From a virus, in IMG/VR virus record IMGVR_UViG_3300036781_000799, positions 1 to 43,403 of that record: 43,403 nt of DNA; one strand, written 5' to 3'. The translations under genes and the position numbers were made by a program. Under the pieces are notes generated by a model that made no database searches, was not told the DNA's origin, and saw nothing but the letters and a program-made list of their open reading frames with translations. This document shows positions 1,289-24,434 of the stretch, one piece after another. Within the stretch, counting starts at the first letter, position 1, and each line of letters starts with the position of its first letter.

Positions 1289-1561
1289 TTAGGGAGTCTT
1301 GCAGTAATGAACGGCATCATTCATTGCGGCGTCAATGTCCTCAACGTCAATGAAGAGTCGTGCCCCGATCTTTCGGGCGGGAAACACATTTGCTCTCAAC
1401 ATGCCCCTCACTCCGTCCGGGGTCGTTGAAAGGTAATCGGCGGCTTGCTCCAAGTTCAAATAGCGTGGAACAATCGCTGCCTTCAGATGTGGGTGAATCA
1501 ATGAAGCAAGACGAGGAGCAACCGCCTTTGCCAGTGCATCAATAAACGCTTCATCGAACAT
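1289..1561 (-). CDS. Excisionase-like small HTH DNA-binding protein
   Basis: This 90-residue protein lies 49 bp upstream of the integrase in the same orientation and is probably co-transcribed with it. Residues about 33-80 read like the winged-helix domain of the excisionase/MerR type: YLNLEQAADYLSTTPDGV (first helix and turn), then a short wing with ARKIGARLFID and a final acidic helix. Such proteins bend DNA at attachment sites or bind operators. Position next to int makes a directionality factor the natural guess, but an ordinary repressor is possible. The start ATG lies at 1559-1561. On the minus strand a purine-rich stretch resembling a ribosome binding site lies about 14 nt upstream, a rather long spacing. 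Confidence 0.7.
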   Translation of the reverse strand: MFDEAFIDALAKAVAPRLASLIHPHLKAAIVPRYLNLEQAADYLSTTPDGVRGMLRANVFPARKIGARLFIDVEDIDAAMNDAVHYCKTP

Positions 1562-2196: not shown

Positions 2197-2205
2197 ACCG
2201 GGTGG

Positions 2206-2224
2206 TTGTTGTTGTCAACAACAA
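2206..2224. promoter_or_regulatory. Palindrome, 9-bp arms with central T (operator candidate)
   Basis: The sequence is TTGTTGTTG-T-CAACAACAA, a perfect inverted repeat with an odd centre. It lies 43 bp upstream of a TTGACA box. A second T-centred palindrome follows at 2241-2255. Both have the form GTT...G-T-C...AAC and their centres are 33 bp apart, about three helical turns, as expected for paired operator sites. The bound regulator is unknown. Confidence 0.5.
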
Positions 2225-2240
2225 TTCCAAAACGGAACGT

Positions 2241-2255
2241 GTTCACGTCGTGAAC
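2241..2255. promoter_or_regulatory. Palindrome, 7-bp arms with central T (second operator candidate)
   Basis: The sequence GTTCACG-T-CGTGAAC is a perfect inverted repeat around a central T. It ends 11 bp before a TTGACA box, so a bound protein could either block or recruit RNA polymerase. It shares the GTT...GTC...AAC skeleton with the palindrome at 2206-2224. Confidence 0.5.
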
Positions 2256-2266
2256 GGCTCCGCACG

Positions 2267-2297
2267 TTGACAAAATAGAAAACCGTGGAATGATAAA
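2267..2297 (+). promoter_or_regulatory. Sigma-70-like promoter candidate for the structured RNA
   Basis: A perfect -35 box TTGACA (2267-2272) is followed after 19 bp by GATAAA (2292-2297), a 4/6 match to TATAAT. The spacer is long, so the assignment is moderate. The overlapping ATAAATG at 2293-2299 also resembles the TAAATA motif with one mismatch. Either reading would start a transcript near 2304, at the beginning of the folded region. Confidence 0.4.
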
Positions 2298-2299
2298 TG

Positions 2300-2785
2300 A
2301 GTACTTGAAGCTCGTTCAGTTCGCCAATGTGGACCCGGTGATAACGACCACATGAACGAATGGCAGACCGAGGTTTTCAAACCATAGCAGCATCGTGCTA
2401 GATGGCAACTGACAAACGGTGTGAAGTCCAGAGGGCGACATAAGAGCCGCTGGCAAGATGGGTTGGAAACAACCCCGGCTTGTATATCCGTGTCGAACCA
2501 CGGTGGTCAAAGTCGTTAGCGTTAACCTACAGCGGTCGGAAACCATCAGAACCCGATTAGCCTAACCCGTCGAAAGACGGTACCCGACACCTGGAGAGGA
2601 ACAAGCGGGCGGTTAGTATACCGGGCAGCCAACGGGTGAGACTACAGCTAATCCCGATTCCGAATGATGGAAACGGTAGCGAGTTCTTGACGGCATCCAA
2701 TCACGTCTTGTACTCGCTTTCCCTTAAACCGATGAGATGGATGAAAACAGATTCCAGTTGGCGGCCTTAAGCCGCCAACTGATTT
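2300..2785 (+). ncRNA. Large structured non-coding RNA candidate
   Basis: No plausible protein gene occupies this stretch. On the plus strand it can form many stems: 2313-2317 with 2354-2358 enclosing 2327-2332 with 2348-2353; 2385-2389 with 2396-2400; 2445-2449 with 2476-2480 enclosing the perfect GGTTG-GAAA-CAACC hairpin (2461-2474); 2488-2492 with 2499-2503; 2555-2561 with 2647-2653 (7 bp) enclosing 2562-2566 with 2612-2616 and the perfect CCGTC-GAAA-GACGG hairpin (2567-2580); 2669-2673 plus 2679-2684 with 2712-2722; and a final 11-bp hairpin at 2755-2781. GAAA tetraloops appear as such only on the plus strand, which fixes the likely orientation. It could be a free RNA of the large phage type (GOLLD or ROOL classes are examples), a long leader for the sigma gene, or a ribozyme. 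I recognise no family signature. Confidence 0.55.
2755..2781 (+). terminator. Strong 11-bp hairpin without T-tract
   Basis: CAGTTGGCGGC pairs perfectly with GCCGCCAACTG around the loop CTTAA. No run of T follows on either strand, so it is not a canonical intrinsic terminator. It closes the structured region and lies 39 bp before the sigma gene; it could be the 3' end of the RNA, a processing site or an attenuator-like element. Confidence 0.4.
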
Positions 2786-2808
2786 CATGAACCTCATTGC
2801 ATGACCGC

Positions 2809-2814
2809 TAAATG
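2809..2814 (+). promoter_or_regulatory. One-mismatch late-promoter-like element before the sigma gene
   Basis: TAAATG ends exactly 5 nt before the sigma gene's ATG at 2820, the same geometry as the perfect TAAATA elements. If functional, it would allow the phage sigma factor to boost its own late synthesis from a leaderless mRNA. Confidence 0.4.
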
Positions 2815-2819
2815 TTGGC

Positions 2820-3368
2820 ATGAGTCCCACTCAAAGCCATCATTACATTGACAACCCCGCATTGACCAAGATCCTAACCGAATGGTCGCAAGCTCGAAAG
2901 CACGCCATTCAAACCAAGCAACCGGTTCCGCCCATCCCCGACCAAGTAGCGGAAGCGGCTTTATTGATCGCAACGAAGCTATCACGCAAAGGAAACTTTC
3001 TCTCCTACACCTATCGTGATGACATGATCGGCGATGGACTCATGGCCGTGACCTTGTACGTGAAAAACTTCGATGCAACCAAGTGCCGGGTTGGTGGCGC
3101 TTTTGCCTATTTGTCCCAGATCGTTCACAGTGCCTTCCTGCGACGGATCGCCAGCGAACAAAAAGCCGCCTATACCCGTGCAAAGTTTATTGAGCACGTT
3201 AAAGGGTTCGACCATCAAGACGGCGACGAAGGGCATTACGTCAACACTCTGCAACAACATTTCATTGAGACCGGAGCCGAAGTCATTACCAGCTACGAAG
3301 AACGGTTGAAGCGCAAACGGGAACAAGCCAAGGAAGCCATTGCCAGACGAGCGGAGCTTGCCGCATAG
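2820..3368 (+). CDS. T4 gp55-like late sigma factor
   Basis: The 182-residue protein matches my recollection of the T4 late sigma factor gp55 (185 residues) over most of its length. Shared features in order are an N-terminal Y-x-x-N-x-x-L (Tyr9, Asn12, Leu15); the block LSRKGNF...YT...MIGDG at about 54-73, corresponding to LSKRFNF...YT...MIADG; NFD at 83-85; AY-x-x-Q at 96-100; and AFLRRI at 105-110, then a basic stretch. These correspond to sigma region 2, which binds the RNA polymerase clamp and the -10 DNA. gp55 family members recognise TATAAATA without a -35 box. The T4 C-terminal sliding-clamp-binding tail (hydrophobic plus acidic) is not seen; the end here is a charged helix. The matching DNA motif occurs before many structural genes, which strongly supports the call. 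Confidence 0.88.
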   Translation: MSPTQSHHYIDNPALTKILTEWSQARKHAIQTKQPVPPIPDQVAEAALLIATKLSRKGNFLSYTYRDDMIGDGLMAVTLYVKNFDATKCRVGGAFAYLSQIVHSAFLRRIASEQKAAYTRAKFIEHVKGFDHQDGDEGHYVNTLQQHFIETGAEVITSYEERLKRKREQAKEAIARRAELAA

Positions 3369-3398
3369 CTTCCTGTCTTGCGACAGCAAGCGGGATAG

Positions 3399-3405
3399 CT
3401 AAATA
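3399..3405 (+). promoter_or_regulatory. gp55-type late promoter (CTAAATA) for a small RNA
   Basis: CTAAATAC stands 30 bp after the sigma gene. With T4 geometry the start would be about 3411. There is no sizeable protein gene between it and the terminator at 3457-3501, so it would produce a transcript of about 90 nt. Confidence 0.6.
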
Positions 3406-3410
3406 CCCAC

Positions 3411-6308: not shown

Positions 6309-6776
6309 ATGCCAAAGCCCAAGAATCTAGCGACCAACAAAGGCGTTGGTGAACTCGCCCGCAAAGCCGGAATCAGCATCACGACCGCATCACGGAAGCT
6401 CGGAGCCGGAAAGACTCCTGAACAAATCATTGCGGAAGCCGAAGAGTATCGCAAAAAGCAGGAACGCCGATCCGAACAGCCGGAAGCGGGCGACGAAGAG
6501 ACGTTCTACGAAGCCCAACGGCGCAAGGAAATTGCCCTAGCCTCACTTCGAGAACTAGAGCTACAGGTCAAGCAAGGTGACCTTGCACCCATAGCCGAAG
6601 TTAACGCTTGGGTTGCCGGAATGATCGTCGAGGCTCGAAACATCTTGCTCCGCATCGCTCCTGACCTTCGTGACCGTCTCGCCATTGAAACAGATCCGGC
6701 TGCGATTGACAGATTGATTGCCGCTGAGGTTGACCGGGCGCTTGCTGCACTCGCTCAATACCCTACCGGATCTTAG
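6309..6776 (+). CDS. Terminase small subunit (Nu1-like)
   Basis: This 155-residue protein has the layout of lambda Nu1-type small terminases: an N-terminal helix-turn-helix at about 12-45 (VGELARKAGISITTASRKLG) for recognising the packaging site, a strongly charged helical linker at 45-70, and a C-terminal helical region from EAQRRKEIALASLRELEL onwards with the recurrent pattern IVEARNILLRIAPDLRDRLA that serves oligomerisation and contact with the large subunit. The large subunit follows after a minus-strand insertion. The 117 bp upstream, between the pseudogene and this start, is the natural place for a cos or pac site, though none is recognisable by eye. Confidence 0.8.
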   Translation: MPKPKNLATNKGVGELARKAGISITTASRKLGAGKTPEQIIAEAEEYRKKQERRSEQPEAGDEETFYEAQRRKEIALASLRELELQVKQGDLAPIAEVNAWVAGMIVEARNILLRIAPDLRDRLAIETDPAAIDRLIAAEVDRALAALAQYPTGS

Positions 6777-6779
6777 TCG

Positions 6780-7499
6780 TCATGCTGATTGGGTCTCCGT
6801 CTTGATATGGCCTTCACCGTCGCATTTGTCACATACCGAAATCGTCTGTGGGATGTTTAGAAATACGTGCGCCTGCTGCGACGCTTTGGATAGCATGAAT
6901 GTGACATGGTTCATTTCCAGTATTGCCGCAACCCGCACGAGTGCGGTGACATGATGCGACTCCATCCCGGAGCCGAAGATGATGTGAGTAACTAAGCTCG
7001 GGTCAAAGCTAACCATTCTGGCTTCTGCCGACTTGAAACGCCGAATACAGCGCCATTCTTCTTCATACTTCCAGACTTGAGACTTATAGAAGCACGCTCC
7101 AGGGTCCGCTTCTGCCAACACCTGAGGGCGTGTCTTGTAAATCACCTTCTTTAGTTCCCGCTCATTGTCGCTGAAAAAGGGAGCATAAGCCTTGAAGCCC
7201 AACACGAAACCCGTATGATTCCGTGCATAGTGGACCCACATCAAGTGATTGTCGTCCCGCTCTGTCAAGCAGAGTATGCCAACTTCATTCCTAAGCCGGA
7301 AGCGTTCAGCGACGGCTCCTGATCCCTTGGGTAGCAAGAATTGGGTATCGAACACATCGTTGAACTCAGCGGGGCGGCTGAAACGTAATTCCAACTGCTC
7401 CAGGACGCTGATACGTTCTGGTGGAAAGTACTTGTAAAGAGTAGTCGGTTTGGTCTTCCCTGGTTCATACACGTAACTCTGCGCTGTCGAGTCGGCCAT
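6780..7499 (-). CDS. DUF2971-type cargo protein inserted between TerS and TerL
   Basis: The frame is open from 7559, but I choose the ATG at 7497-7499 (MADSTAQSY), giving 239 residues and avoiding overlap with TerL. The sequence has hallmarks of the DUF2971 family: YKYFPPERI, RFSRPAEFNDVFDT, GILCLTERDDNHLMWVHYA and HTGFVLGFKA in this order. The biochemical role of that family is not established, and members occur in accessory and defence-rich loci. A possible own promoter on the minus strand is TTTACG and TATACT 18 bp apart, just upstream of the start and inside the beginning of TerL. Gene orientation against the packaging genes marks it as a moron. A CDKC pair near the C-terminus could be half of a zinc site. 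Confidence 0.75.
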   Translation of the reverse strand: MADSTAQSYVYEPGKTKPTTLYKYFPPERISVLEQLELRFSRPAEFNDVFDTQFLLPKGSGAVAERFRLRNEVGILCLTERDDNHLMWVHYARNHTGFVLGFKAYAPFFSDNERELKKVIYKTRPQVLAEADPGACFYKSQVWKYEEEWRCIRRFKSAEARMVSFDPSLVTHIIFGSGMESHHVTALVRVAAILEMNHVTFMLSKASQQAHVFLNIPQTISVCDKCDGEGHIKTETQSA

Positions 7500-7530
7500 G
7501 TAAGAGTATAGGCTCTCTTGTGTGACGGCG

Positions 7531-7536
7531 TAAATA
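7531..7536 (+). promoter_or_regulatory. gp55-type late promoter for TerL
   Basis: GTAAATACC ends 5 nt before a GTG at 7542 that is in frame with TerL, so the predicted transcription start is the start codon itself. The element lies after the minus-strand cargo gene and would restart plus-strand transcription. Confidence 0.65.
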
Positions 7537-7541
7537 CCGGT

Positions 7542-9497
7542 GTGCCAAGCCTCATACACCAGTGGTCAAGCCTCTGGACCCCACCCCAACGGCTACCGCT
7601 CTCCGACTGGGCGGAACAGAACTTCTACCTGACTACCGATTTCGCACCCCGAAATGGATTGCTCAAGCTCTACGCATGGCAGCGGGAAATCTTTGATGCG
7701 TTCACCGATCCAAGCACAACGGAGATTACTTGCATGTTGGCAATCCAACTCGTCAAGACGCTTTTCATACAGTGTGCCCTTGCTTACGTGATCGCCGAAG
7801 ACCCTGGACCCGTCCTACTCGTGGAGCCGAAGGAAGCGGACGCAATGGCGTTTTCCAAGAAACGCCTGAAGCCCATGATTCAGGCTTCCCCGGCATTGCG
7901 TCACATCATCAACACCGATGCGAAGCGGGATAACACCATTCTGTCAATGGATTTTCCGGGGGGGAACTTTACGGCGGTATCAGCGCTGGTACCGGGGAAC
8001 TTGGCCGGTCGCACGATTAGATACCTTTTCGCTGATGAACTCGATAAGTTTGAGGCGTCAGCCGGTAAAGCCGGTGACCCGATCTCCCTAGCTAAAGGGC
8101 GTACAACCAACTTCGGATCGCTGCGAAAGATCATTCAGACGTGCTCACCAACCAATGAAGGGGAAAGCCGAATTGCGCTTGCCTATGAAGCGTCGGACCA
8201 ACGTAAGCCGTGGGTTCCGTGTCCGCATTGCGGCGGGTTCCAGATACTCACCTTTGACCGGGTGAAGTGGGGCGACAAGCTGCCAGTAGAACTCAGGGGT
8301 TCGAATGGCGAAGTCCCTGGACCAACTTGCTATGAGTGTTCGCATTGTGGCGAGTTCTGGAGTGATGTACAGCGACGGAAAGCGTGTGAGCTTATCCAAT
8401 GGCGTGCTGACAAACCTTTCAAGGGACATGCCGGGTTCTGGATTTCGCACTTATACAGCCCGTGGAACTCCTTGGAAGAACTCGCTTCCGATTTCCTCAT
8501 TGCCAAGCGTAGCAAGCAAACATTGAAGGTGTTCATAACGGAACGTCTAGCCGAACTCTGGAAGGAAGACGGACAGGTACCCGATGAACAGCGCTTGTAC
8601 GAGCGTCGTGAAAGCTACCCATTCGGTGAAGACGCAGTTATACCGCAACGTGGCTTGCTTCTAGTTGCCGCAACGGACGTTCAGGAAAACCCGCCAAGAC
8701 TTGAAACCAGCGTCTTCGCCTTCGGTCGAGACAAAGAATGTTGGCTCATTGACTATCAGGTCATACAAGCATTTGCGGACGACAAAGCCAAGTCAGCATT
8801 GCCGGTCACATCGCCCGCAGTGTGGGCCGAACTCGATAGACGGGTATTGCAAAAGGGGTACCGGCACGAGTCAGGCGCAATACTTCCAATTTGGTTGATG
8901 GCGATTGACACCGGCATGAGACCACAGCCGGTCTACGATTTTGCCCTGAGACATCCGCAACCGGCATACACACCAGCAGGCGGGCTAATCTCCGTCCCTT
9001 CGCATCGTTCCGTTGTCCCCGTCAAGGGTAACGATGATGACTTAAAGATCATTGCCGGTGTATCGAAGGAAGACGCAGCACGGAAGCGTCAGGGCGTGCG
9101 GATTGTGAGCGTGGGAACGACCCGTTGCAAAACGGAAATCTTCGACAACTTGCGGTATGTGAAGCCTGACCCGGATGGAAAGCCGGTTGCGAATTGCTGG
9201 CACTTCCCCAAGGTCGAGAGAACTTACTTCGAGGGTCTGTGCTCGGAACGTCGAGTGGTGAAGGCGAACACTGGCGAAGTTGTTTGGCAGAAGATTAACC
9301 CACGCAATGAACCGCTTGATTTGGCCGTATACGCTCGGGCGGCGGCTTCGATGGTGGGCGTTGATCGCTTCAAAGACCATCATTGGGCGGGTCTGGAAAG
9401 CCGGTTGACGGAGCGCAACGAGGCGAAAGAAGCCGCCAGCCCTGCAACGCCAGTTGCAACACGTCCTAAACGGTTGGCGGGCTTCGCATTCAACTAA
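7542..9497 (+). CDS. Terminase large subunit (lambda GpA family)
   Basis: The 651-residue packaging motor begins, in my reading, at GTG 7542, because a TAAATA element ends 5 nt earlier; an in-frame TTG at 7518 is the alternative. The family pattern is clear: SDWAEQNFYL at the N-terminus, a degenerate Walker A with IQLVKT, GPVLLVEPKEADA and the Walker B-like LFADELDKF for ATP hydrolysis. Two CxxC pairs (CPHC and CYECSHC) follow, as is usual in GpA proteins. The nuclease part starts with ATDVQENPPRLE and includes AIDTGM. It cuts concatemeric DNA and drives it into the prohead through the portal. The stop TAA at 9495-9497 is also the first half of the next late promoter. Confidence 0.95.
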   Translation: MPSLIHQWSSLWTPPQRLPLSDWAEQNFYLTTDFAPRNGLLKLYAWQREIFDAFTDPSTTEITCMLAIQLVKTLFIQCALAYVIAEDPGPVLLVEPKEADAMAFSKKRLKPMIQASPALRHIINTDAKRDNTILSMDFPGGNFTAVSALVPGNLAGRTIRYLFADELDKFEASAGKAGDPISLAKGRTTNFGSLRKIIQTCSPTNEGESRIALAYEASDQRKPWVPCPHCGGFQILTFDRVKWGDKLPVELRGSNGEVPGPTCYECSHCGEFWSDVQRRKACELIQWRADKPFKGHAGFWISHLYSPWNSLEELASDFLIAKRSKQTLKVFITERLAELWKEDGQVPDEQRLYERRESYPFGEDAVIPQRGLLLVAATDVQENPPRLETSVFAFGRDKECWLIDYQVIQAFADDKAKSALPVTSPAVWAELDRRVLQKGYRHESGAILPIWLMAIDTGMRPQPVYDFALRHPQPAYTPAGGLISVPSHRSVVPVKGNDDDLKIIAGVSKEDAARKRQGVRIVSVGTTRCKTEIFDNLRYVKPDPDGKPVANCWHFPKVERTYFEGLCSERRVVKANTGEVVWQKINPRNEPLDLAVYARAAASMVGVDRFKDHHWAGLESRLTERNEAKEAASPATPVATRPKRLAGFAFN

Positions 9498-9500
9498 ATA
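9495..9500 (+). promoter_or_regulatory. gp55-type late promoter overlapping the TerL stop
   Basis: TAAATA shares its TAA with the TerL stop codon and ends 9 nt before the ATG at 9510. The predicted leader would be about 4 nt. Confidence 0.6.
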
Positions 9501-9509
9501 ACTTCCAGT

Positions 9510-9716
9510 ATGGACAATCCTCCTATCTGGACGCAGCAAGATTTGATTGCGATTTCTCAAGCGATTTCAGCCGGTGTGCTGGAAGTTCGTTTTGCAAACG
9601 GATCGGCACGGTACAACACAACCGCCGATCTCTTGAAGGCACGTCAAGCAATTCAATCCTACCTTGATTCGCAAACCGGAACAGTTCGCATTCGGCAAAC
9701 ACTTCTGTACAACTAA
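9510..9716 (+). CDS. gpW-like head-tail joining protein
   Basis: The 68-residue length and position between TerL and portal match lambda gpW. The pattern DLIAISQAISAGVLEVRFANG followed by a short strand (ARYNTTADLL) and a helix agrees with the gpW fold of two helices and a small beta hairpin. In lambda this protein stabilises filled heads and makes them competent for tail joining. The stop overlaps the portal start (TAATG), so the two are translationally coupled. Confidence 0.85.
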   Translation: MDNPPIWTQQDLIAISQAISAGVLEVRFANGSARYNTTADLLKARQAIQSYLDSQTGTVRIRQTLLYN

Positions 9717-11251
9717 TGGGTTTCTTCACCAACATCATTGACGCTGTTCTAGCACGTCCTAAGACCAATGCTCTTGGTTCACCCAACGGCTACAGTGCAG
9801 GCGCATACAACCGCTACACGAAGACCTGGAATGCTTCGCCACTTGGACCAAACACCCTTGCCGAAGTCAACTTGCAGACGATCCGCAAGCGCACACGGGA
9901 CGCCATCCGGGACAGTGCCATTGCAGAGAGCGCTTTTAACAAGTGGGTCAGCAACGTAATCGGTTCCGGTATCGTTCCGCATTTTCTACACCCGGACCCG
10001 GACACCCGGAAGACGATTCAAGACGCTTGGGACAAGTGGTCAAAAGCAGCCGACTATGACGGGATTGACTCGTTCTATGGTCTGCAAACGTTGGCGGCTA
10101 TGGAACTGTTCGCAGCGGGGGAAGTCTTCGTTAGGTTCCACACTCGCAATGACGGCTCCTTCACAGTCCAGTTGATCGAATCGGAACAGCTTTCCGAGTT
10201 CCGCAACATCGCAATGACGGCGGAAGGCAACAACGTAAAAATGGGCATTGTCTTTGACAACGAAGACAAGCGCATAGGGTACGACCTTTGGAAGGTCAAC
10301 CCGTGGGACACCATCGTTGTGTCTGAGGGCGTAGGGCAATACGTGTTCATTCCGGCTGACGAGATGTTGCACGTAATGAAGCGCACCCGTGCCGGTCAGT
10401 TGAGACCAACCGGGGGTCACATGACATCGGCGTTGATCCTACTCCAGCAAATTGAAAAGTACTCGGAAGCGGAACGGCTCCGTAAGGAAATGGCGGCTTG
10501 CTTTGCCGTGTTCATTACCAAGCTGACTTTGGACGACCAAGTATTACCGCCTTCCACAATCCCGGATGCCACCTTCTCGCAGGGCAAGGACGAGTCACGC
10601 ATCGAACCGGGCACCGCTCAATACTTGCTGCCCGGTGAGGACGTGAAGTTTTCCGAACCGCCCGACAGTGGCGACTTCGCCTCGTTCATGAATCAACAGT
10701 TGCACCTGTTCGCCGCTGGCGTGGGTGTGACCTTCGAACAACTCACCAACGACTTTTCGAAAGTCAACTTCAGTTCGATCCGTGCCGGTGTGCTTGAGTT
10801 CCGCAGAGCGGTTGAGCAATACCAAGCCAACATCGTCATTCACCAAATGCTTGAACCGGTCATGAAACGTTGGATGAAGGAAGCCGTATTGAATGGCTCC
10901 TTGACATTGCCGGATGACTACTTTGACACCCCGGAAGTCTACGAGGCGGCTAAGTGGGTCGCACCCGGTTGGAATTGGGTAAACCCGAAAGACGAAGTTG
11001 ACGCATACCAAACCGCCGTTAGATCCGGCTTCATTTCCCGTACACAGGTAGTCAGAGAACAAGGGTTCGACCCCGAAATCATTGATGCACAGCAAGCCGA
11101 AGAACGGCAACGGGCGGAAGGTCTTGGACTCATTTACGATTCGGACCCGAACAAGGTTTTGATTGGCCGTGAAAGTCAACCGTTGGCATCAACAGCGGTT
11201 GAACCGGGCACCGACACACCCGCCGAATCAATGGAAGCGGCAAACGGATAA
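9716..11251 (+). CDS. Portal protein (lambda gpB family)
   Basis: The 511-residue protein shows the lambda portal pattern: a short N-terminal region, then RKRTRDAIRDSAIAESAFNKW with the following VIGSGIVPHF, an alpha/beta wing region with GEVFVRF and IESEQLSEF, FIPADEMLHV, and the stem/clip with KVNFSSIRAG and a tail containing WVAPGWNWVNPKDEV. It forms the dodecameric ring at one head vertex for DNA passage and docking of terminase. It starts in overlap with the gpW stop. Its TAA stop forms part of the following late promoter. No truncation is evident. Confidence 0.95.
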   Translation: MGFFTNIIDAVLARPKTNALGSPNGYSAGAYNRYTKTWNASPLGPNTLAEVNLQTIRKRTRDAIRDSAIAESAFNKWVSNVIGSGIVPHFLHPDPDTRKTIQDAWDKWSKAADYDGIDSFYGLQTLAAMELFAAGEVFVRFHTRNDGSFTVQLIESEQLSEFRNIAMTAEGNNVKMGIVFDNEDKRIGYDLWKVNPWDTIVVSEGVGQYVFIPADEMLHVMKRTRAGQLRPTGGHMTSALILLQQIEKYSEAERLRKEMAACFAVFITKLTLDDQVLPPSTIPDATFSQGKDESRIEPGTAQYLLPGEDVKFSEPPDSGDFASFMNQQLHLFAAGVGVTFEQLTNDFSKVNFSSIRAGVLEFRRAVEQYQANIVIHQMLEPVMKRWMKEAVLNGSLTLPDDYFDTPEVYEAAKWVAPGWNWVNPKDEVDAYQTAVRSGFISRTQVVREQGFDPEIIDAQQAEERQRAEGLGLIYDSDPNKVLIGRESQPLASTAVEPGTDTPAESMEAANG

Positions 11252-11254
11252 ATA
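11249..11254 (+). promoter_or_regulatory. gp55-type late promoter overlapping the portal stop
   Basis: ATAAATAC uses the portal TAA as its first three motif bases and ends 6 nt before the GTG start at 11261. The predicted leader is only one nucleotide. Confidence 0.65.
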
Positions 11255-11260
11255 CTTTCT

Positions 11261-12733
11261 GTGAACTTCCTACACCTACAGACCCGCATCTTTGATACTC
11301 CGCTTGCCATTCAACCGGCAAAGCTCGAAGTGATCTTGCAAGCCATCGGTTCCCGTTTGGGTCTTCCTAGCGGCTTCCAGGTTACCCCGGTTGAAGCCGC
11401 AATGAAGGTGCAAGCCGCCACACCGAAAGCGTACAGCGTCACACAGGAAGGAATTGCAATCATTCCCATTCAAGGGACGCTCATGAAAAAGACATCCGGT
11501 CTTATGGCGTTGAGCGGTTGCACGTCCTATGAAGCGCTTGCTAACGAGCTTTCCGAGTGCGTGAGTTCGCCACAGGTGAAGGGTATTCTTCTAGACATTG
11601 ACTCACCGGGTGGGGAAGTATCGGGCTTGTTCGATCTTGCGGACGCCTTTTACAATGCCAGAGCTTCCGGCAAGCCGATCTATGCGGTTAGCAATGAATC
11701 CGCTTTCAGTGCGGCGTATGCGCTGGCGTCGTGTGCTGACAAGATTTTCATAACCCGCACCGCTGGCGTTGGGTCCGTGGGCGTGTTTTGCCTTCACGTC
11801 GACCAGTCGTCCGCCGATGCGAAAGCCGGTCTGAAATACACCTACGTAAAAGCGGGCGCAAAGAAGACCGAAGGGAACCCACACCAACCGCTTTCAGAGC
11901 AAGCCGCAACCGACCTTCAAGCCGAGGTTGACCGGGAATATCAAATGTTCGTCGAACTGGTAGCCCGCAATCGTGGCGCTAACGTTCGGTCGGTCATTGA
12001 TACAGAAGCCGGATGCTTTTTCGCAGACAATGCCCTACCGCTATTGGCTGATGAAGTCGGAACATTCGAAGACGCATTAGCGGCTTTGAGCGAAGCCGTG
12101 TCCATTTCTGGCACGGAGCAAGGCGCATTTATAAATACTTCAGCAACCACGAACGAGGGACACAAGCAAATGAAGACAGTAGAACTCAACGCAACGGAAG
12201 ACAACGCAGTGCTTGAAGCCGCCATTGTCGCAGAGAAAGCGGACGACGAAATGGAAACGCCAGAGTATGCGGCGGTACCGGACGACGGGGACGGCGACGA
12301 AGACGAACCGGAAGACGACGAGAAGAAAAAGCCGGAAGCATCTACTAGCGACATTAAGCAGATTATGAATCTGTGCAAGCTGGCAAGCGTGGACATTACC
12401 ACGGCGTCCGACTTCATCAATAAGGGCTATTCAGTCCAACAGGTCATTGACGCTTTGGCTACAGAGCGTTCGACACGGAGCAACAAAACCAAAGTGAACA
12501 CCACGATTAACAGCACGACCGCAAATACCATTGACGCTCTCCAGGAACAAGCCCTAGCGAGTGCCAATGACGACCCGAAGAAAGCGCTTGCGACTTTCAA
12601 GAGTCTTTTGAAAAAGAATCCGTCTGCATACGTTCAGTATGTGGATACCAAGATGGAAGCCCTAGCTTTGCCTTCCACCAAGCGCAAATACATTGCGGAA
12701 CTCGAAGCGAAGCACGGTCAGAAAGTGGCCTAA
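11261..12733 (+). CDS. S49-family prohead protease fused to scaffold (lambda C type)
   Basis: The 490-residue product combines an N-terminal S49/SppA-like serine protease with a C-terminal scaffold, as in lambda C/Nu3. Visible protease features are VKGILLDIDSPGGEVSG (about 106-122), the presumed nucleophile Ser150 in SAFSAAYALAS, the GVGSVGVF strand (169-176) and the general base Lys197 in YVKAGAKK. After about residue 290 comes a Thr/Ala linker, an acidic stretch with DDGDGDEDEPEDDEKKK, and a helical C-terminus. A GTG start at 11261 is chosen because the promoter motif ends 6 nt before it. The protease would cleave the scaffold during head maturation. An internal in-frame start at 12170 would give the scaffold alone. 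Confidence 0.93.
   Translation: MNFLHLQTRIFDTPLAIQPAKLEVILQAIGSRLGLPSGFQVTPVEAAMKVQAATPKAYSVTQEGIAIIPIQGTLMKKTSGLMALSGCTSYEALANELSECVSSPQVKGILLDIDSPGGEVSGLFDLADAFYNARASGKPIYAVSNESAFSAAYALASCADKIFITRTAGVGSVGVFCLHVDQSSADAKAGLKYTYVKAGAKKTEGNPHQPLSEQAATDLQAEVDREYQMFVELVARNRGANVRSVIDTEAGCFFADNALPLLADEVGTFEDALAALSEAVSISGTEQGAFINTSATTNEGHKQMKTVELNATEDNAVLEAAIVAEKADDEMETPEYAAVPDDGDGDEDEPEDDEKKKPEASTSDIKQIMNLCKLASVDITTASDFINKGYSVQQVIDALATERSTRSNKTKVNTTINSTTANTIDALQEQALASANDDPKKALATFKSLLKKNPSAYVQYVDTKMEALALPSTKRKYIAELEAKHGQKVA
12130..12137 (+). promoter_or_regulatory. Perfect T4-type late promoter inside the protease gene
   Basis: TATAAATAC matches the full T4 late consensus over all eight positions. 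It lies within coding sequence, 32 nt before the in-frame ATG at 12170, and GAGGGA precedes that ATG by 9 nt, so here a conventional ribosome binding site would be used. Confidence 0.65.
12170..12733 (+). CDS. Nested scaffold protein (Nu3-like internal start)
   Basis: An ATG at codon 304 of the protease gene opens a 187-residue product, MKTVELNAT onward, in the same frame. It is acidic at the start (DDGDGDEDEPEDDE), then helical with DIKQIMNLCKLASVDITTA, and ends with a basic helix typical of capsid-binding scaffolds. It has its own perfect TATAAATA element and a GAGGGA ribosome binding site, so separate expression at higher levels than the full-length protease is likely, matching the lambda C/Nu3 arrangement where the scaffold is needed in large excess. 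Confidence 0.65.
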   Translation: MKTVELNATEDNAVLEAAIVAEKADDEMETPEYAAVPDDGDGDEDEPEDDEKKKPEASTSDIKQIMNLCKLASVDITTASDFINKGYSVQQVIDALATERSTRSNKTKVNTTINSTTANTIDALQEQALASANDDPKKALATFKSLLKKNPSAYVQYVDTKMEALALPSTKRKYIAELEAKHGQKVA

Positions 12734-12751
12734 GCAGAGGAATAGAACCCA

Positions 12752-13126
12752 ATGGCATACGAAGCAATTTCACAGCATTTCAGCGCACCCGCAGCAAGTG
12801 ACCTTTCGGCACTGCAATACACCGCTGTTATTTTCGACACGACGGCGGGCGGCTCCCAAATCGCAGCGGCAACCGCTGCCAAGAACATGGACGGCATTTT
12901 GCAGGACGCTCCCAAGAGTGGTCAGGCGGGCAATGTCGCAATCAACGGCGTGACCAAAGCAAAACTTTCGGGCAGCGTCACAGCGGGCGACCAACTCGAA
13001 ATTGATACGGGCGGAACGTTCGTTACCAAGGCATCCGGTCAGGCGGTAGCAAAGGCTCTGTCTAGCGGGTCCAGTGGCGACATTATCCCCGTATCCCTTT
13101 ACAAGGGTAACGGTCTGTACGCCTAA
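12752..13126 (+). CDS. Head decoration/stabilisation protein (gpD-like)
   Basis: The product has 124 residues and lies exactly between scaffold and major capsid protein, the place of lambda gpD. It begins MAYEAISQHFS and is rich in Ala, Gly, Thr and Ser, with strands such as YTAVIFDTTAGGSQI and LSGSVTAGDQLEIDTGGTFV, a pattern typical of the DUF2190/decoration families that sit on the capsid surface and secure expanded heads. AGAGGAA about 8 nt upstream acts as ribosome binding site. No separate late promoter motif precedes it, so it is read from the scaffold or protease transcript. Confidence 0.8.
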   Translation: MAYEAISQHFSAPAASDLSALQYTAVIFDTTAGGSQIAAATAAKNMDGILQDAPKSGQAGNVAINGVTKAKLSGSVTAGDQLEIDTGGTFVTKASGQAVAKALSSGSSGDIIPVSLYKGNGLYA

Positions 13127-13182
13127 GAGAAATCAACAAACCCTTTTCGCAAAAAGAAAGGACGTGAGGAATGAAATAACAA

Positions 13183-14172
13183 ATGAATCCGACAGTAAAC
13201 GCAGTTCACTATGATGCGCCATTGAGCTTTGTAAGCAACATGTACGCACAAGGTCAAGACGCTTTCATTGCGACGAGGGTCTTTCCGATGGTTAGCGTAC
13301 CGCAAGCATCCGACTTGATCTATACGATTAACAAGGGCGACTTTGCACGCAACACCATGCAGAAGCGGGCACCCGGCACCGAGAGTGCGGGTATCGGCTA
13401 CAACGTTGACACTAACAAGTCTTACCGTTGCGCTGTGTGGTCCATCCACAATGACATCCCGGACCAGATCCGGGCCAATGCTGACGCAGCGCTCAATCTG
13501 GAAATGAACACCACGGAGCTTTTGACCAAAGCGGCTTTGATTAACCGTGAAGTCACTTTTGCTTCGAGCTTCCTTTCTTCGGGCAAGTGGGCGACACAGT
13601 GGACGGGTGAAGTATCTTCGCCTTCCACCAATCAGTTCTTGCAGTGGAACGACCCGGCTTCAACCCCGGTTGAAGACATTCGCAAGGTTCGGACGCTCGT
13701 TCATCTTGCATCGGGCGGCTTCGCACCGAACAAGCTCGTTATTGGTCGCAGCGTCTATGATGCGCTCCGCAACCATCCTGACATCCTGGACCTGATTAAG
13801 TATCAGGGCACCCCGGCTAACCCTGCACAGGTCACCTTGAACGCTCTCGCAGCGCTCTTTGATCTCGATGAAGTGTTGGTGACGGAAGCCGTGAACAACA
13901 CAGCGGCGGAAGGTCAGACGGCATCTTTCAGCTACATTTCGGACAAGTCGGCATTGCTGGTGTACACCCCTGATGCTCCTGGCTTGGGCGTTCCGGCTTC
14001 CGGCTACACATTCAACTGGACGGGTCTTTTCGGAACCGGCAACGCTGGCACCCGTGTTAAGGCGTTCCGCATGGAATGGCTTGATTCGCTCCGTGTGGAA
14101 GTTGACCAAGCCTATGACATGCAGATCATGGACAACACCTTGGGCGGCTATTTCATCACTGCCGTTGCCTAA
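13183..14172 (+). CDS. Major capsid protein (lambda gpE family, HK97 fold)
   Basis: The 329-residue protein shows the E-type capsid pattern: an N-terminal arm, then FIATRVFPMVSVPQASD, the loop with YTINKGDFARN, the spine-helix area around IPDQIRANADAALNLEMNTTE, then NKLVIGRSVYDALRNHPDI and the A-domain strands near LDEVLVTEAVNNTA. The C-terminus WLDSLRVEVDQAYDMQI is also typical. It builds the icosahedral head. GTGAGGA lies about 11 nt upstream; the neighbouring GAAATA differs from the late promoter motif in its first base and I do not call it. The stop overlaps the next start. Confidence 0.93.
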   Translation: MNPTVNAVHYDAPLSFVSNMYAQGQDAFIATRVFPMVSVPQASDLIYTINKGDFARNTMQKRAPGTESAGIGYNVDTNKSYRCAVWSIHNDIPDQIRANADAALNLEMNTTELLTKAALINREVTFASSFLSSGKWATQWTGEVSSPSTNQFLQWNDPASTPVEDIRKVRTLVHLASGGFAPNKLVIGRSVYDALRNHPDILDLIKYQGTPANPAQVTLNALAALFDLDEVLVTEAVNNTAAEGQTASFSYISDKSALLVYTPDAPGLGVPASGYTFNWTGLFGTGNAGTRVKAFRMEWLDSLRVEVDQAYDMQIMDNTLGGYFITAVA

Positions 14173-14417
14173 TGGGATTGCTTGACACAAAGAACCGGGA
14201 AGACTGGCGAACGCTCACCAGTCTTTCTATTCCGGTCATGACCGTTCGCAACCGTCCCCTTCTTTGGAACGGTGACATGTTGCCGGTTGGCTTCGTTTTT
14301 CCGGTCATTGAGACCGAATCAAGACGGGTTCGACAACTGTACGAGCAAAACAAGATCGGCGTTGCCGTGGTCATTGAACCGGAGCCGGAACCAAAGAAAA
14401 CGAAAAAGAGGAAATAA
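14172..14417 (+). CDS. Small head-associated hypothetical protein
   Basis: This 81-residue product overlaps the capsid gene stop by one base and is probably translationally coupled. A middle segment (MTVRNRPLLWNGDMLPVGFVF) looks beta-rich, followed by a helix (RRVRQLYEQNKIGV) and a basic, Lys-rich tail after a Pro-Glu stretch. Similar small proteins occur between capsid and connector genes in lambda-like phages, but I cannot assign a role. It might be a connector accessory or a capsid-binding factor. Confidence 0.65.
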   Translation: MGLLDTKNREDWRTLTSLSIPVMTVRNRPLLWNGDMLPVGFVFPVIETESRRVRQLYEQNKIGVAVVIEPEPEPKKTKKRK

Positions 14418-14419
14418 CC

Positions 14420-14836
14420 ATGGGTATTCAAAAGTTCAAAAGGGGCGTAGTCGCTCCGTCGTTCACACCGGCATTGTCGGGCATTCCGCTTGCTGACCTT
14501 GCACACGGAACGGATGGTCAGATTCCGGTTGCTCAAACATCGGCAGCAACCACCTATCGGGCAGTATCGGGCGATGTCACCATGACGAGTCTCGGCGCTA
14601 CCACAATCGGGGCGGGCAAAGTCACGAAAGCCAAGATGAAAGTCTTCACGGCTAACAGCGTATCGGGCACGGGTTCGGCGCAAAACGTGGCGCATGGTCT
14701 CGGCACAACCCCAACCTTCGTAATCATCACGTCTCCTGACGGCGGAACCCTGACGTATGGAACGCACGACGGAACCAACGTTAAGTTCACAGCGGGCGAC
14801 AACTCCCACCACTTTGACGTTATCGCTTTCGCCTAA
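14420..14836 (+). CDS. Putative head fibre or surface structural protein
   Basis: The 138-residue protein starts MGIQKFKRG and carries, at about 78-115, the pattern AQNVAHGLGTTPTFVIITSP, which is common at the C-termini of phage fibre and other surface proteins. The rest is Thr/Gly/Ala-rich, suggesting an extended trimeric fibre. Its location in the head region favours a head fibre. AGAGGA lies 7 nt before the ATG. Confidence in a structural role is moderate, in the exact role low. Confidence 0.6.
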   Translation: MGIQKFKRGVVAPSFTPALSGIPLADLAHGTDGQIPVAQTSAATTYRAVSGDVTMTSLGATTIGAGKVTKAKMKVFTANSVSGTGSAQNVAHGLGTTPTFVIITSPDGGTLTYGTHDGTNVKFTAGDNSHHFDVIAFA

Positions 14837-14854
14837 GAGCGGAGCCAACATCCA

Positions 14855-15268
14855 ATGAGCAACTACAGAGACAAAGGCGTAACGTTCAAGACCACCCGCA
14901 CAAGTGGCGTTGACGTTCCTTCGGTGAACGTTGACAACATCACAGTTGACTTGACGGGCGCAACTCTCGATCCGACCAACCTAGCTTTAGAGCAAGGACA
15001 CTTGGTTGCTCTGGCACCTGTGCCGGGTGTGGCGCAACACATCGCTTACACGACCCATGCAGAGAGCACAACGGTAGGCGTCACGCTGATAGAGCTTTGT
15101 GCAACGACCGATTGTCACATTGTCATTGGCGGAAGCCCGGTTGCAACGGCCAATTCAACGTATCTTCCTGCGAAGACCATCAAGCACTATTCGTGCCAGA
15201 TCACCGATAAAGTATCGGTGATTCAGGACTCCACGGGCGGAACCCTGTACATCACGCCGTGTTCGTAA
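14855..15268 (+). CDS. Hypothetical structural protein of the head module
   Basis: A 137-residue, Thr- and Val-rich protein (KTTRTSGVDVPSVNVDNITV, GVTLIELCATTDCHIVIGG) with the look of a beta-sandwich of a virion protein. The segment with GVTLIELCATTDCHIVIGGSP followed by AKTIKHYSCQITDKVSVIQD is reminiscent of small phage proteins that coat the capsid or bind head fibres. AGCGGAG lies about 11 nt before the ATG. The gene lies between a fibre-like protein and the first connector protein. No exact family is recognised. Confidence 0.6.
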   Translation: MSNYRDKGVTFKTTRTSGVDVPSVNVDNITVDLTGATLDPTNLALEQGHLVALAPVPGVAQHIAYTTHAESTTVGVTLIELCATTDCHIVIGGSPVATANSTYLPAKTIKHYSCQITDKVSVIQDSTGGTLYITPCS

Positions 15269-15269
15269 A

Positions 15270-15605
15270 ATGGCCTTCAATGATCTCGTCAAACTTGCAC
15301 ACAACGCAGTTCTAAACGTCTTCGGCGTTCAGGCTGAAAGCATCCCTGCACTTTTCACACCCCAAGATTACTCGGGGCCGCAGTTCATCAACGGCGTAAT
15401 CTCTCCTCCTCCACTCGAAGAACAAGTAATACCCGGTTCCATGACCGGTACGAGCGTGGTGTACTTCTTTGTCCGAATCGTTGACATCACACCACAACCC
15501 CGGATCGGGGACAAGCTCACCTTGGACGGCGTTCTTTACAACATTGACAAGGTGAACATTGACAATCAAAACGGGGCAATGCTCCACATGCGGAAGGTGT
15601 CCTAA
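15270..15605 (+). CDS. Head-tail connector (gpFII-like)
   Basis: The 111-residue protein shows the small beta-barrel pattern of lambda gpFII-type joiners: an N-terminal helix (DLVKLAHNAVLNVFG), a strand with IPALFTP, a middle with GTSVVYFFVRIVDI, and the C-terminal signature RIGDKLTLDGVLYNIDKV ending in a strand rich in hydrophobics. It would attach to the portal-stopper complex and provide the docking surface for the tail. Its stop overlaps the next start. Confidence 0.75.
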   Translation: MAFNDLVKLAHNAVLNVFGVQAESIPALFTPQDYSGPQFINGVISPPPLEEQVIPGSMTGTSVVYFFVRIVDITPQPRIGDKLTLDGVLYNIDKVNIDNQNGAMLHMRKVS

Positions 15606-16075
15606 TGTTGAAACCTTCGCTTGTCGTCAACGCAGTCATTACGACCTTGCAAACCATTCAACCGTTCGTTGCCGCAATGAACGGAGCGCAAAACATCAAG
15701 GCGCATTCGTTTGTCAATGGTCAGGTGGTCCCGATCATGACGGACATTTACGAGATGACTTCGCCGTCTTGCTTGGTGGTCTATGAAGGCACCTTGGGCG
15801 GGAACTTTGACGGGATGACGATGTGGAAGCATCACCTAACCGTCTATTTGAAGGCTCCGAATCAAGCCACAGTACAAGCCCCATTGGGTTACGAAGACTT
15901 GGTTTGGTTAGTCGTCAATGGAGCCGTGAACGGGACGCAGTTGAACATCCGGCAAATCAGCGTCATCCCCGAGGTTACGTTAGTGGACACACCGACCATA
16001 ACCCGGCTCACCGATGAAACCCGGACAGACTTTTTCAAGATTGATATGGTGTTCCCCGAGATTGGGGATAACTGA
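15605..16075 (+). CDS. Tail terminator-like protein
   Basis: The 156-residue product lies directly between the connector and the tail tube gene, the conserved position of the tail terminator (lambda gpU). It has an N-terminal helix (LVVNAVITTLQTIQPFV), a central strand pair (CLVVYEGTLGG, HHLTVYLKAP) and a C-terminal DETRTDFFKIDMVFPE strand typical of terminators, which cap the growing tail tube and face the head. Assignment is from order and predicted fold, not from direct sequence similarity. Confidence 0.65.
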   Translation: MLKPSLVVNAVITTLQTIQPFVAAMNGAQNIKAHSFVNGQVVPIMTDIYEMTSPSCLVVYEGTLGGNFDGMTMWKHHLTVYLKAPNQATVQAPLGYEDLVWLVVNGAVNGTQLNIRQISVIPEVTLVDTPTITRLTDETRTDFFKIDMVFPEIGDN

Positions 16076-16085
16076 CGGCAAACGC

Positions 16086-16091
16086 TAAATA
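16086..16091 (+). promoter_or_regulatory. gp55-type late promoter before the tail tube gene
   Basis: CTAAATAT lies 21 nt before the ATG at 16113. The predicted transcript would begin near 16097 and include CAGGGG, which can serve as the ribosome binding site. This high-demand gene thus has a short conventional leader. Confidence 0.6.
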
Positions 16092-16112
16092 TCATCTCAG
16101 GGGTTATAACCA

Positions 16113-17120
16113 ATGGCAACACGTGTACAAGCATTAAAACTCGGATTGGGCAAGGCAAAGCAAGCGGACATTGTGACCGTTGCCGGTTCGTTCCTGACTT
16201 TCGAAAAGACGAACGAAGACGTTACCAGCGTCAACTTCACAACGGAGAATGACGCTCCTTGGATCGGCAAAGGCAACGAGTTTGTTTCGAGCGCTGGCGT
16301 TTACCCGGTTTCGCAGACTCCGCAAAACCGTATTGAAATGTACGGATCGGCGGAAATGGTCACTTGGGCTTTTGCTTACGCTCTTGGGCACGTCGCCGAA
16401 GCAACCGGACTGTATACGTTGAAGCCGATTCAAAACGGCACAACGCTTGAGCTTCCCTATTTTTCAATCTGCGAACAGATGCCGGAAGGGGGAGCGGAAG
16501 CGATTGATAACGTCTATGTCGGTTGCTCGATGGAAGACGTAACGTTCACGCTCAACAGCGGGCCGGGTCTTCAGTCAACCAAGGTGGTTTCAAATTGGGT
16601 TGGATCGGGCAACTACACCAGCCCGTCAACGGTTAGCCTTCCGTCGCTCACTACTCAGCACTTCATGCCGGGTGCGTCCGCTGCCCTTACTGTCAACGGA
16701 ACGGACTACGTAGCCGCAAAGACGCTCTTGAACGCAACGATTGGTTGGAAGAACAACCTTCTGTTGAATGCGGGTTTCTTCCCCGGATCGGGCACACAAA
16801 ACGGTGCGGCGGTTCGTGGCCGTATGGAAATCGGAGTGCGTCAGCCTACCTTCGAGTTCACTGTTAGATTGCTTTCGACTTCAACGGAGTTTGCCTCGTT
16901 GGTCGGTCTCACTTCGGGAACGGCAGTCTTGACCGTCACTTTCGACGCCACCCACACAACTACGTTCACCTTCGGTGAAGTCACCTTTGAGAGCGTGACT
17001 AACACCGTGGTTGACGGGATTGCGGCGGTTCGTGTCGTGTGCGCTGTCCAGGATTCGGACGGAACCGGCAACCCCTTGATTGTCACCAGCAAGTGCGGAA
17101 TTACGGGTATCGCTCAGTAA
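16113..17120 (+). CDS. Major tail tube protein
   Basis: The 335-residue product has the composition and motif order of siphovirus tail tube proteins: an N-terminal strand with IVTVAGSFLTFEKTNEDV, a long beta-rich core including IGKGNEFVSSAGVYPV and ALGHVAEATGLYTLKP, then an inserted or added Ig-like domain near VRQPTFEFTVRLLST and LTVTFDATHTTTFTFGEVTF. The tube polymerises around the tape measure protein. It is followed by the small protein and chaperones as in lambda. A CAGGGG ribosome binding site is present. Confidence 0.8.
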   Translation: MATRVQALKLGLGKAKQADIVTVAGSFLTFEKTNEDVTSVNFTTENDAPWIGKGNEFVSSAGVYPVSQTPQNRIEMYGSAEMVTWAFAYALGHVAEATGLYTLKPIQNGTTLELPYFSICEQMPEGGAEAIDNVYVGCSMEDVTFTLNSGPGLQSTKVVSNWVGSGNYTSPSTVSLPSLTTQHFMPGASAALTVNGTDYVAAKTLLNATIGWKNNLLLNAGFFPGSGTQNGAAVRGRMEIGVRQPTFEFTVRLLSTSTEFASLVGLTSGTAVLTVTFDATHTTTFTFGEVTFESVTNTVVDGIAAVRVVCAVQDSDGTGNPLIVTSKCGITGIAQ

Positions 17121-17124
17121 AGCC

Positions 17125-17286
17125 ATGCAAACGGGGACAGCAGTAACAAGCCCGATGCAAGACCGTGCGGAGATGTTAGAAGACATCGAATGCACGTTCC
17201 GCAACATGATTGCGGATATGAACACGGTGCGGGATGAACTGGCGTCCGTCTTCGCCGATCACCAAAAGACGCACACGGAAATCTAA
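17125..17286 (+). CDS. Small helical hypothetical protein
   Basis: I place the start at the ATG at 17125 because the longer open frame overlaps the end of the tube gene. The product is 53 residues, mostly one charged helix (RAEMLEDIECTFRNMIADMN), which could be a small tail assembly accessory. The stop TAA at 17284-17286 makes up the first half of the next late promoter. Confidence 0.55.
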   Translation: MQTGTAVTSPMQDRAEMLEDIECTFRNMIADMNTVRDELASVFADHQKTHTEI

Positions 17287-17289
17287 ATA
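17284..17289 (+). promoter_or_regulatory. gp55-type late promoter overlapping an upstream stop
   Basis: CTAAATAC shares its TAA with the stop of the small helical protein and ends exactly 5 nt before the ATG at 17295, so the predicted mRNA starts on the A of the start codon. Confidence 0.7.
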
Positions 17290-17294
17290 CCTTC

Positions 17295-17696
17295 ATGGCA
17301 ATCACAGTAAATCACACCGTCACCCGCACGTACAAGAACCAGGGTTCAACCGCACGCACGCTAACCGAAACGGTCAGCGGCAACACGGAGCGCAATCTCG
17401 CCGTCACGGTTTCGGCGTCAACCAACAACCATGAAGTTGACCTTGCGTTTCTTCATGCCGATCTCAAGAGCCTGAGTATCACCAGCGACCAAGCCGTAAC
17501 CATCTACACCAACGCAGCATCAAGCATGAGTCCGCAAGACACAATCCCGATTGCGGCGGGTCAGGTGCTTATCTGGACGCTGGCAACCGACTTGATTGCT
17601 CGTTGCCCATTCTCGGATAACGTTACGGCTCTGTTCATCACGAACACGGGCGGAACCGCTGCCAACATCTACATTGATTCGATTCTGACAATCTAA
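17295..17696 (+). CDS. Putative tail-associated structural protein
   Basis: The 133-residue product is a beta-rich protein with the recurring pattern LKSLSITSDQAVTIYTNAAS followed by QDTIPIAAGQVLIW and FITNTGG, which occurs in small virion proteins close to tail tube or decoration genes in many phages. It has no ribosome binding site but a late promoter 5 nt before the ATG. It might coat the tail tube or the capsid; I cannot say which. Confidence 0.65.
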   Translation: MAITVNHTVTRTYKNQGSTARTLTETVSGNTERNLAVTVSASTNNHEVDLAFLHADLKSLSITSDQAVTIYTNAASSMSPQDTIPIAAGQVLIWTLATDLIARCPFSDNVTALFITNTGGTAANIYIDSILTI

Positions 17697-17698
17697 CC

Positions 17699-17950
17699 TT
17701 GCGTAGCAACTGTTTGGTTTTCGCAATCAAACGTTGGGTCACTTCGGGCGGCTATGTGATCGTCAGAAAGTCGTTTTACGGTTGGTGGCCTCATTTCCTT
17801 TGGTCGAAAGACCTTCGAACCTTTGTTGAGTTCGTCCCCGTGGCTCCCCGTCGCCGTTTCTTTCCGCCGTTGTGGTTCCGTGGCAGGGTCAAGACGCACA
17901 CGCTACATATCCCCGAGGAACCACACCATTCATGTTGTACGGTGAATTGA
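17699..17950 (+). CDS. Small conserved tail-region protein (WWPHFLW motif)
   Basis: An 83-residue frame starts with TTG two bases after the previous stop; a GTG at 17756 is another possible start. It contains KSFYGWWPHFLWSKDLRTF and PLWFRGRV, an aromatic-rich pattern I have seen in short proteins near tail genes of several phages. Its end overlaps the next gene start by 19 bases. Function unknown. Confidence 0.55.
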   Translation: MRSNCLVFAIKRWVTSGGYVIVRKSFYGWWPHFLWSKDLRTFVEFVPVAPRRRFFPPLWFRGRVKTHTLHIPEEPHHSCCTVN

Positions 17951-18944: not shown

Positions 18945-18947
18945 ATA
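18942..18947 (+). promoter_or_regulatory. gp55-type late promoter overlapping the gpT-like stop
   Basis: GTAAATAC shares its TAA with the chaperone fusion stop and ends 6 nt before the ATG at 18954. Confidence 0.65.
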
Positions 18948-18953
18948 CTTCGT

Positions 18954-19406: not shown

Positions 19407-19414
19407 GCCAACCG

Positions 19415-20005: not shown

Positions 20006-20048
20006 GAACACAATATAACGCACTCCCGAACGCAGGGAGCCAGAACCA

Positions 20049-20054
20049 TAAATA
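20049..20054 (+). promoter_or_regulatory. gp55-type late promoter for the tape measure gene
   Basis: ATAAATAT ends 5 nt before the ATG at 20060, giving a predicted leaderless start. It follows the minus-strand cargo gene and explains how the tape measure escapes its interference. Confidence 0.7.
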
Positions 20055-20059
20055 TCCCT

Positions 20060-24428: not shown

Positions 24429-24434
24429 TAAATA
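24429..24434 (+). promoter_or_regulatory. gp55-type late promoter before the tail tip gene
   Basis: CTAAATAT ends 9 nt before the ATG at 24444. Predicted leader about 4 nt. Confidence 0.65.

Follow-up and report, generated by a model that had tools for sequence, protein, structure and literature searches.

The late box of phage T4, TATAAATA, spans positions -13 to -6 (PMC2988020, PMC7892883), and the residues with which the T4 sigma factor gp55 grips its flipped bases have been described (PMC7892883). By itself, gp55 supports accurate basal transcription, for which its clamp-binding tail is unneeded (PMC2988020, PMC7892883). The late promoters of the Aeromonas phage Aeh1 read a/gC-TAAATA (PMC2988020). 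Phage-encoded sigma factors are also known from siphoviruses and temperate phages, for example P-SS2 (PMC2784084) and WBeta (PMC9429907). A 2010 review of T4 late transcription called the restriction of this device to T4 and its relatives puzzling (PMC2988020), and in the open-access literature we found gp55 reported from neither lambda-type nor temperate phages. Here, we analyzed 43,403 nt of viral DNA (positions 1 to 43,403 of the IMG/VR record IMGVR_UViG_3300036781_000799; hereafter the window), for which a preliminary description had reported a gp55-type sigma gene in a lambda-type temperate phage. We find it likely that a gp55-family sigma factor, probably a stand-alone one, drives TAAATA late promoters in this phage.

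Profile, fold and most functional residues place the 182-aa product of the gene in question (Table 1) in the gp55 family. A profile search matched residues 3-171 to PHROG 234, 'late sigma transcription factor' (E 8.9e-44), and phmmer aligned residues 6-172 with the gp55 chain 7d7c_F of the gp55-dependent open complex in the PDB (7d7c; E 1.1e-13); a Pfam profile scan of the protein gave no match. The AlphaFold model (mean pLDDT 90.6) comprises a sigma region 2, a long H4 and a helical extension, as in the gp55 family. Its sole significant fold match in the PDB was 7d7c_F (TM 0.73 by target length), and several of the next-ranked matches were sigma factors or sigma region 2 domains. The earlier assignment as a T4 gp55-type protein is thus borne out, and the profile and structure comparison proposed as a check on the relation to sigma region 2 brought no refutation: profile, sequence and fold searches all lead to the gp55 family. 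The motifs named at that stage are real as well, as the 18 invariant columns in an alignment of 64 gp55s (the window protein plus 63 from fetched contigs) are present in the protein.

Among the T4 base-contact residues, N13, L54, F86 and Y97 are conserved in the aligned window protein, T99 is replaced by serine and R57 by lysine, and H95 is phenylalanine, likewise in nearly all gp55s. The acidic polymerase contacts E70, D74 and E77 correspond to D68, D72 and M75; the position of E77 holds glutamate in 105 of 105 other gp55 sequences but methionine here. The C-terminal clamp-binding motif of T4 and T2 gp55 is absent: T2 gp55 ends in SPSLDFLYEAND and the window protein in KREQAKEAIARRAELAA, a basic, alanine-rich helix. 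No bacterial clamp-binding pentapeptide was found in the protein. A simple pattern finds a clamp-binding-type motif in 68 of 104 other gp55s; short cyanophage forms, like the window protein, lack it. In a tree, the window protein sits on a long branch that lies outside the gp55s sampled from contigs, so it has not been copied recently from any of these; its precise placement is unsure and was not used, as it and T2 gp55 are both long branches with possible mutual attraction. Codon usage (z -1.6) and G+C of the gene agree with the rest of the phage.

Table 1. Coordinates of the gp55 locus, the TAAATA sites and the main phage genes in the window
Feature	Position	Strand	Remarks
Tyrosine integrase, 412 aa	1..1239	-	PHROG 1 E 9e-42; PF00589
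HTH_17 excisionase-like protein	1289..1561	-	Family profile matches
Non-coding stretch upstream of gp55, 620 nt	2200..2819	+	Folds better than shuffles, z -3.5
Sigma70-like promoter upstream of gp55	2267-2294	+	Sequence match
Hairpin upstream of gp55, 13-bp stem	2754-2782	+	Predicted fold
TAAATG, one mismatch to TAAATA	2809..2814	+	5 nt before gp55 start codon
gp55-family late sigma factor	2820..3368	+	182 aa, ATG start, intact open ORF
TAAATA after gp55	3400..3405	+	Exact match; terminator-like hairpin with T-rich tail downstream, 3457-3490
Lambda-type packaging, head and tail module	6309..23956	+	Family profile matches
TAAATA, 5 nt before terL GTG start (7542)	7531..7536	+	Exact match
TAAATA, 9 nt before head-tail adaptor Ad1 start (9510)	9495..9500	+	Overlaps terL stop codon
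TAAATA, 6 nt before head protease GTG start (11261)	11249..11254	+	Overlaps portal stop codon
Perfect TATAAATA in protease gene	12130..12137	+	32 nt before in-frame ATG 12170 with Shine-Dalgarno
TAAATA, 21 nt before gene 16113 (probable major tail protein)	16086..16091	+	Gene has Shine-Dalgarno
TAAATA, 5 nt before gene 17295	17284..17289	+	Exact match
TAAATA, 6 nt before gene 18954	18942..18947	+	Exact match
TAAATA, 5 nt before tape-measure start (20060)	20049..20054	+	Exact match
TAAATA, 9 nt before gene 24444 (1489 aa, tail)	24429..24434	+	Exact match
TAAATA, 5 nt before gene 30239	30228..30233	+	Exact match
TAAATA, 24 nt before gene 31917	31887..31892	+	Gene has Shine-Dalgarno
TAAATA, 37 nt before gene 32956	32913..32918	+	Gene has Shine-Dalgarno

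The gene sits in a setting that is foreign to T4. With an integrase and lambda-type packaging and head genes, the window has the make-up of a temperate lambda-type siphophage, and its gene content points to a temperate life cycle. The late module encodes TerS, TerL, Ad1, portal, protease, a decoration or scaffold-like protein, major head protein, head closure and tape measure. The integrase and the core of the lambda-style module that had been described (TerS, TerL, portal, protease, head and tape measure) were therefore recovered, while completeness of the head and tail module is plausible, although several tail proteins have no family match. No Q-like antiterminator was found among the window proteins scanned (some small ORFs lay outside the scan), in agreement with the earlier statement that none was seen. 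None of the scanned proteins had a match named gp33, and a search for the gp45 sliding clamp (PF02916) gave no match in the window, although the record may be incomplete. Replication genes and repressors were recognized neither between integrase and terminase (1240-6300) nor in the window as a whole, and the window starts and stops at gene ends, as trimmed provirus records do; the phage may therefore be incomplete. Between integrase and terminase there are also small proteins without a family at 1996, 3523 (with a CxxC pair), 3792 (- strand), 4247 and 5428, the last with a codon usage unlike that of the late genes (z -6). An endonuclease VII (PF02945, the family of T4 gp49) at 4867-5427 is a second T4-type function in the early region; endonuclease VII is common in other phages too. 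At the other end, 36569-38458 encodes a 629-aa protein with many TQTQ.GKA-like repeats followed by a fibronectin-like stretch, which looks like a repetitive tail or fibre protein.

Relatives of gp55 were found by tblastn in 2307 phage records. Among the records listed, the shortest with gp55 is an 89-kb single-cell marine contig, and nearly all others exceed 120 kb. At all of the at least 112 other loci that were fetched from viral and genome contigs, gp55 is adjoined by uvsW, gp47 or gp46. None of these three genes was found in the window, none of the fetched loci has other genes in common with it, and the window alone among these loci has gp55 together with both an integrase and a head module of the lambda type. 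The contigs searched yielded no further genome with gp55 in a lambda-type context, and gp55 was not found in the relatives reached via the head protein or the terminase, most of which are short fragments. Searches from individual parts of the phage gave little more: single-protein patterns found no close relatives of the 182-aa protein in IMG/VR, a plasmid search found none, a DNA pattern for its GGAFAYLSQ insertion had no match, no relatives of the integrase were found, a TerL search in genome contigs had no match, and the probable tail protein had no relatives beyond IMGVR_UViG_3300036781_000806.

TAAATA forms the last six bases of the T4 late box (positions -11 to -6). It has 13 exact matches in the window, all 13 on the + (late) strand and none on the - strand, where 5.9 are expected on both strands together and none of 100 shuffles reaches 13; the sites pointed out in the preliminary description are thus real. 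Within the 45 bases upstream of gene starts, which make up 4% of the sequence, lie 11 of the 13. TAAATA ranks first of all hexamers for start proximity (P 3.5e-14, in a test with the motif already known and the terL and tape-measure starts fitted to homologues), and with uncorrected mechanical starts 9 of 13 still lie within 50 nt (P 4e-10). No TAAATA stands before the leftward integrase or excisionase-like genes. Two features support reading the sites as putative late promoters: they stand at the places expected of such promoters, and a pair of related prophage segments has kept them. Only the exact TAAATA core is enriched: TATAAATA with up to one mismatch was found 7 times (8.0 expected). 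The late region holds no excess of sigma70-like sites (5, against 10.8 expected). An origin of TAAATA as a mere by-product of TAA stop codons was rejected, as only 4 of the 13 overlap one. Most window sites have C at -12, as opposed to the A read by T4 gp55. Further upstream, A is frequent at -16 (10 of 13) and -15 (8 of 13), a possible extra contact.

The distance from TAAATA to the start codon carries further information. Because the T4 late box ends at -6, TAAATA followed by 5 nt places +1 on the first base of the start codon. This spacer of 5 nt precedes terL, 17295, the tape measure gene and 30239, and one of 6 nt precedes the protease gene and 18954. Eight window starts with spacers of 5-9 nt have a weak Shine-Dalgarno or none (-3.5 kcal/mol or weaker), whereas all four starts with longer spacers have one (-5.0 or stronger; exact P 0.002). 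The related record described below shows the same split (P 0.03; pooled exact P 2e-5), and every longer-spacer start in the pooled set, 16-40 nt from TAAATA, has a Shine-Dalgarno; in the short-spacer group, TAAATA itself fills part of the Shine-Dalgarno stretch, which qualifies this comparison. In that record, the 17295 gene has no TAAATA before its start and a Shine-Dalgarno instead. The split supports the view of TAAATA as a putative promoter from which transcription starts about 6 nt further on; many of the late mRNAs would then be leaderless.

The record IMGVR_UViG_3300036781_000806 (66 kb) has the late module in common with the window, in two segments. In segment A the common proteins are 49-92% identical to those of the window and the aligned DNA is about 73% identical; in segment B, on the other strand, TerL is 53% identical to window TerL. 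The record (L002, L121, L149) holds two related phage segments head to head, with TerLs 53% and 79% identical to that of the window; an integrase lies at one end, and the genes at the other end look bacterial. Segment A has nine TAAATA sites, all forward, and segment B eight, all reverse, so that each set is co-directional with its late genes. At the junctions that can be compared between the window and segment A, TAAATA is kept at 7 of 8, with spacers and flanks changed. The TATAAATA in the protease gene and the internal ATG that follows it are likewise kept at the same place (L002/L121). This ATG may be a nested scaffold start like that of lambda Nu3, and the arrangement at 12130-12733 of the window looks as if a nested scaffold owned a late promoter.

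No gp55 was detected in the 66-kb record, and no other sigma gene either (no Sigma70_r2 match). Nothing upstream of the segment A TerS resembles the early region of the window; segment A apparently lacks the region after the tape-measure block and continues into bacterial-looking genes, and the record looks like prophage remnants without early regions. The missing gp55 therefore says little. Nonetheless, the argument is at its weakest here, with TAAATA arrays in a related record where gp55 was not detected. In the head and terminase families, the more distant relatives have neither TAAATA arrays nor gp55. Judged by eye, genes in the flank of the related record resemble Acidobacteria proteins, and the host may belong to that group.

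The surroundings of gp55 may bear on its own expression. The stretch before the gene holds no convincing gene and could be a structured leader, operators or an RNA of unknown kind; palindromes lie near 2207-2256. An Rfam search found no family at gathering score, the weak matches near gp55 being far below threshold. The TAAATG just before the start codon, which was found after the fact, is tentatively taken as a self-reinforcing gp55 promoter. Behind the gene, a late transcript from the TAAATA at 3400 to the terminator-like hairpin would be about 90 nt long, a possible small RNA.

Taken together, these observations suggest the following scheme. The gp55-family sigma, consisting of a region-2-like domain and a helical extension, would direct host RNA polymerase to TAAATA promoters ahead of the packaging, head and tail genes, each promoter being a shortened T4 late box without a -35 element. 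Transcription would start about 6 nt after TAAATA, and in about half of the mRNAs made from these promoters the 5' end would then lie at the start codon or beside it. The factor would fill the role held by Q or other activators in other temperate phages. Given that it lacks the clamp-binding tail and that gp45 was not found, the factor most probably works alone, with late timing set by its own synthesis and without the coupling to replication of T4; that it reads TAAATA, and does so independently of a clamp, is our inference. Late timing would then follow gp55 expression; the gene is preceded by a sigma70-like promoter and by the 620-nt stretch with its strong predicted folding, and TAAATG may allow self-reinforcement. 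Counted against this scheme are the related record, with conserved TAAATA arrays and no detectable gp55 or sigma gene, the methionine at the E77 contact, the C at -12 of most sites, and the lack of a second genome found with gp55 in such a context. A broader version, in which a family of temperate lambda-type phages, possibly of Acidobacteria, uses stand-alone gp55, leaderless mRNAs made by TAAATA at 5-6 nt and TAAATG self-reinforcement, is one that we hold with somewhat less than even confidence.

TAAATA might instead be read by a host sigma factor, for instance as the -10 box of leaderless host genes, with the gp55-like gene a bystander in another role. Some bacteria are known to have leaderless genes in which a -10 box immediately precedes the start codon, a precedent that favors this idea, as does the related record, which keeps its arrays where neither gp55 nor another sigma gene was detected. 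However, sigma70-type boxes need a T at the last -10 position, which TAAATA lacks, while it is identical with the T4 late box from -11 to -6. Its restriction to the late strand, never before the leftward integrase and excisionase-like genes, the lack of such arrays in distant relatives of the same head and terminase families, and its co-occurrence with a gp55 gene in the window also speak against a host sigma, and we regard this explanation as unlikely.

Alternatively, gp55 might depend on a clamp and on a co-activator of the gp33 type, supplied by the host or by DNA beyond the record, in a T4-like replication-coupled system; this would fit a record that has no replication genes and may be incomplete. 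Moreover, gp33-like proteins are both small and divergent, and near gp55 there are several small ORFs without a family. Yet the protein has its basic, alanine-rich helix in place of the T4/T2 C-terminal clamp-binding motif and lacks the bacterial pentapeptide, and no gp45 family match was found in the window, so that such a dependence seems quite improbable. An assembly chimera, with a gp55 gene from a T4-like phage joined to a lambda-type contig, could be suspected on the grounds that among the loci fetched gp55 otherwise occurs in a T4 context only and that no second contig is so arranged. Against this, uvsW, gp46 and gp47 are absent, though at least one is present at all other fetched loci (at least 112). 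The codon usage and G+C of the gene fit the phage, the protein branches outside the sampled T4-like gp55s and is not a recent piece of any, and a matching promoter array lies in the same phage. We therefore consider a chimera very improbable.

If the scheme of a stand-alone gp55 holds, a small temperate phage has the sigma part of T4 late transcription and a promoter array to go with it, but apparently no clamp. The phage would be a natural case in which to ask whether gp55 can drive a late programme alone, how a sigma factor can replace Q in an integrating phage, and in what way leaderless translation can be dictated by promoter position. The regular promoter word makes these predictions testable with purified protein and short templates.

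Among described systems, T4 is the closest in its parts. The window protein resembles gp55 (PDB 7d7c) in length, fold and most base-contact residues, and the putative promoters resemble T4 late promoters in having TAAATA at -11 to -6 and no -35 element. On the other hand, the window protein has no clamp-binding tail and has methionine for E77, no gp45 was found, the box is without the conserved TA at -13/-12, and the genome is a small lambda-type one with an integrase. With no tail motif on the protein and no gp45 found, the phage is not assigned to the clamp-coupled late transcription of T4. Aeh1 shares the TAAATA core and C instead of A at -12 but is a large T4-like phage. P-SS2 and WBeta are likewise siphoviruses or temperate phages whose genomes encode a sigma factor; these sigmas are described as host-like group 2/3 or sporulation-like rather than gp55, and control of a late regulon is not described there. 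The lambda Q antiterminator holds the same logical place, the switch from early to late genes in a lambda-type phage, but it acts on elongation from one late promoter, whereas the window phage is proposed to use a sigma factor and about a dozen dispersed promoters.
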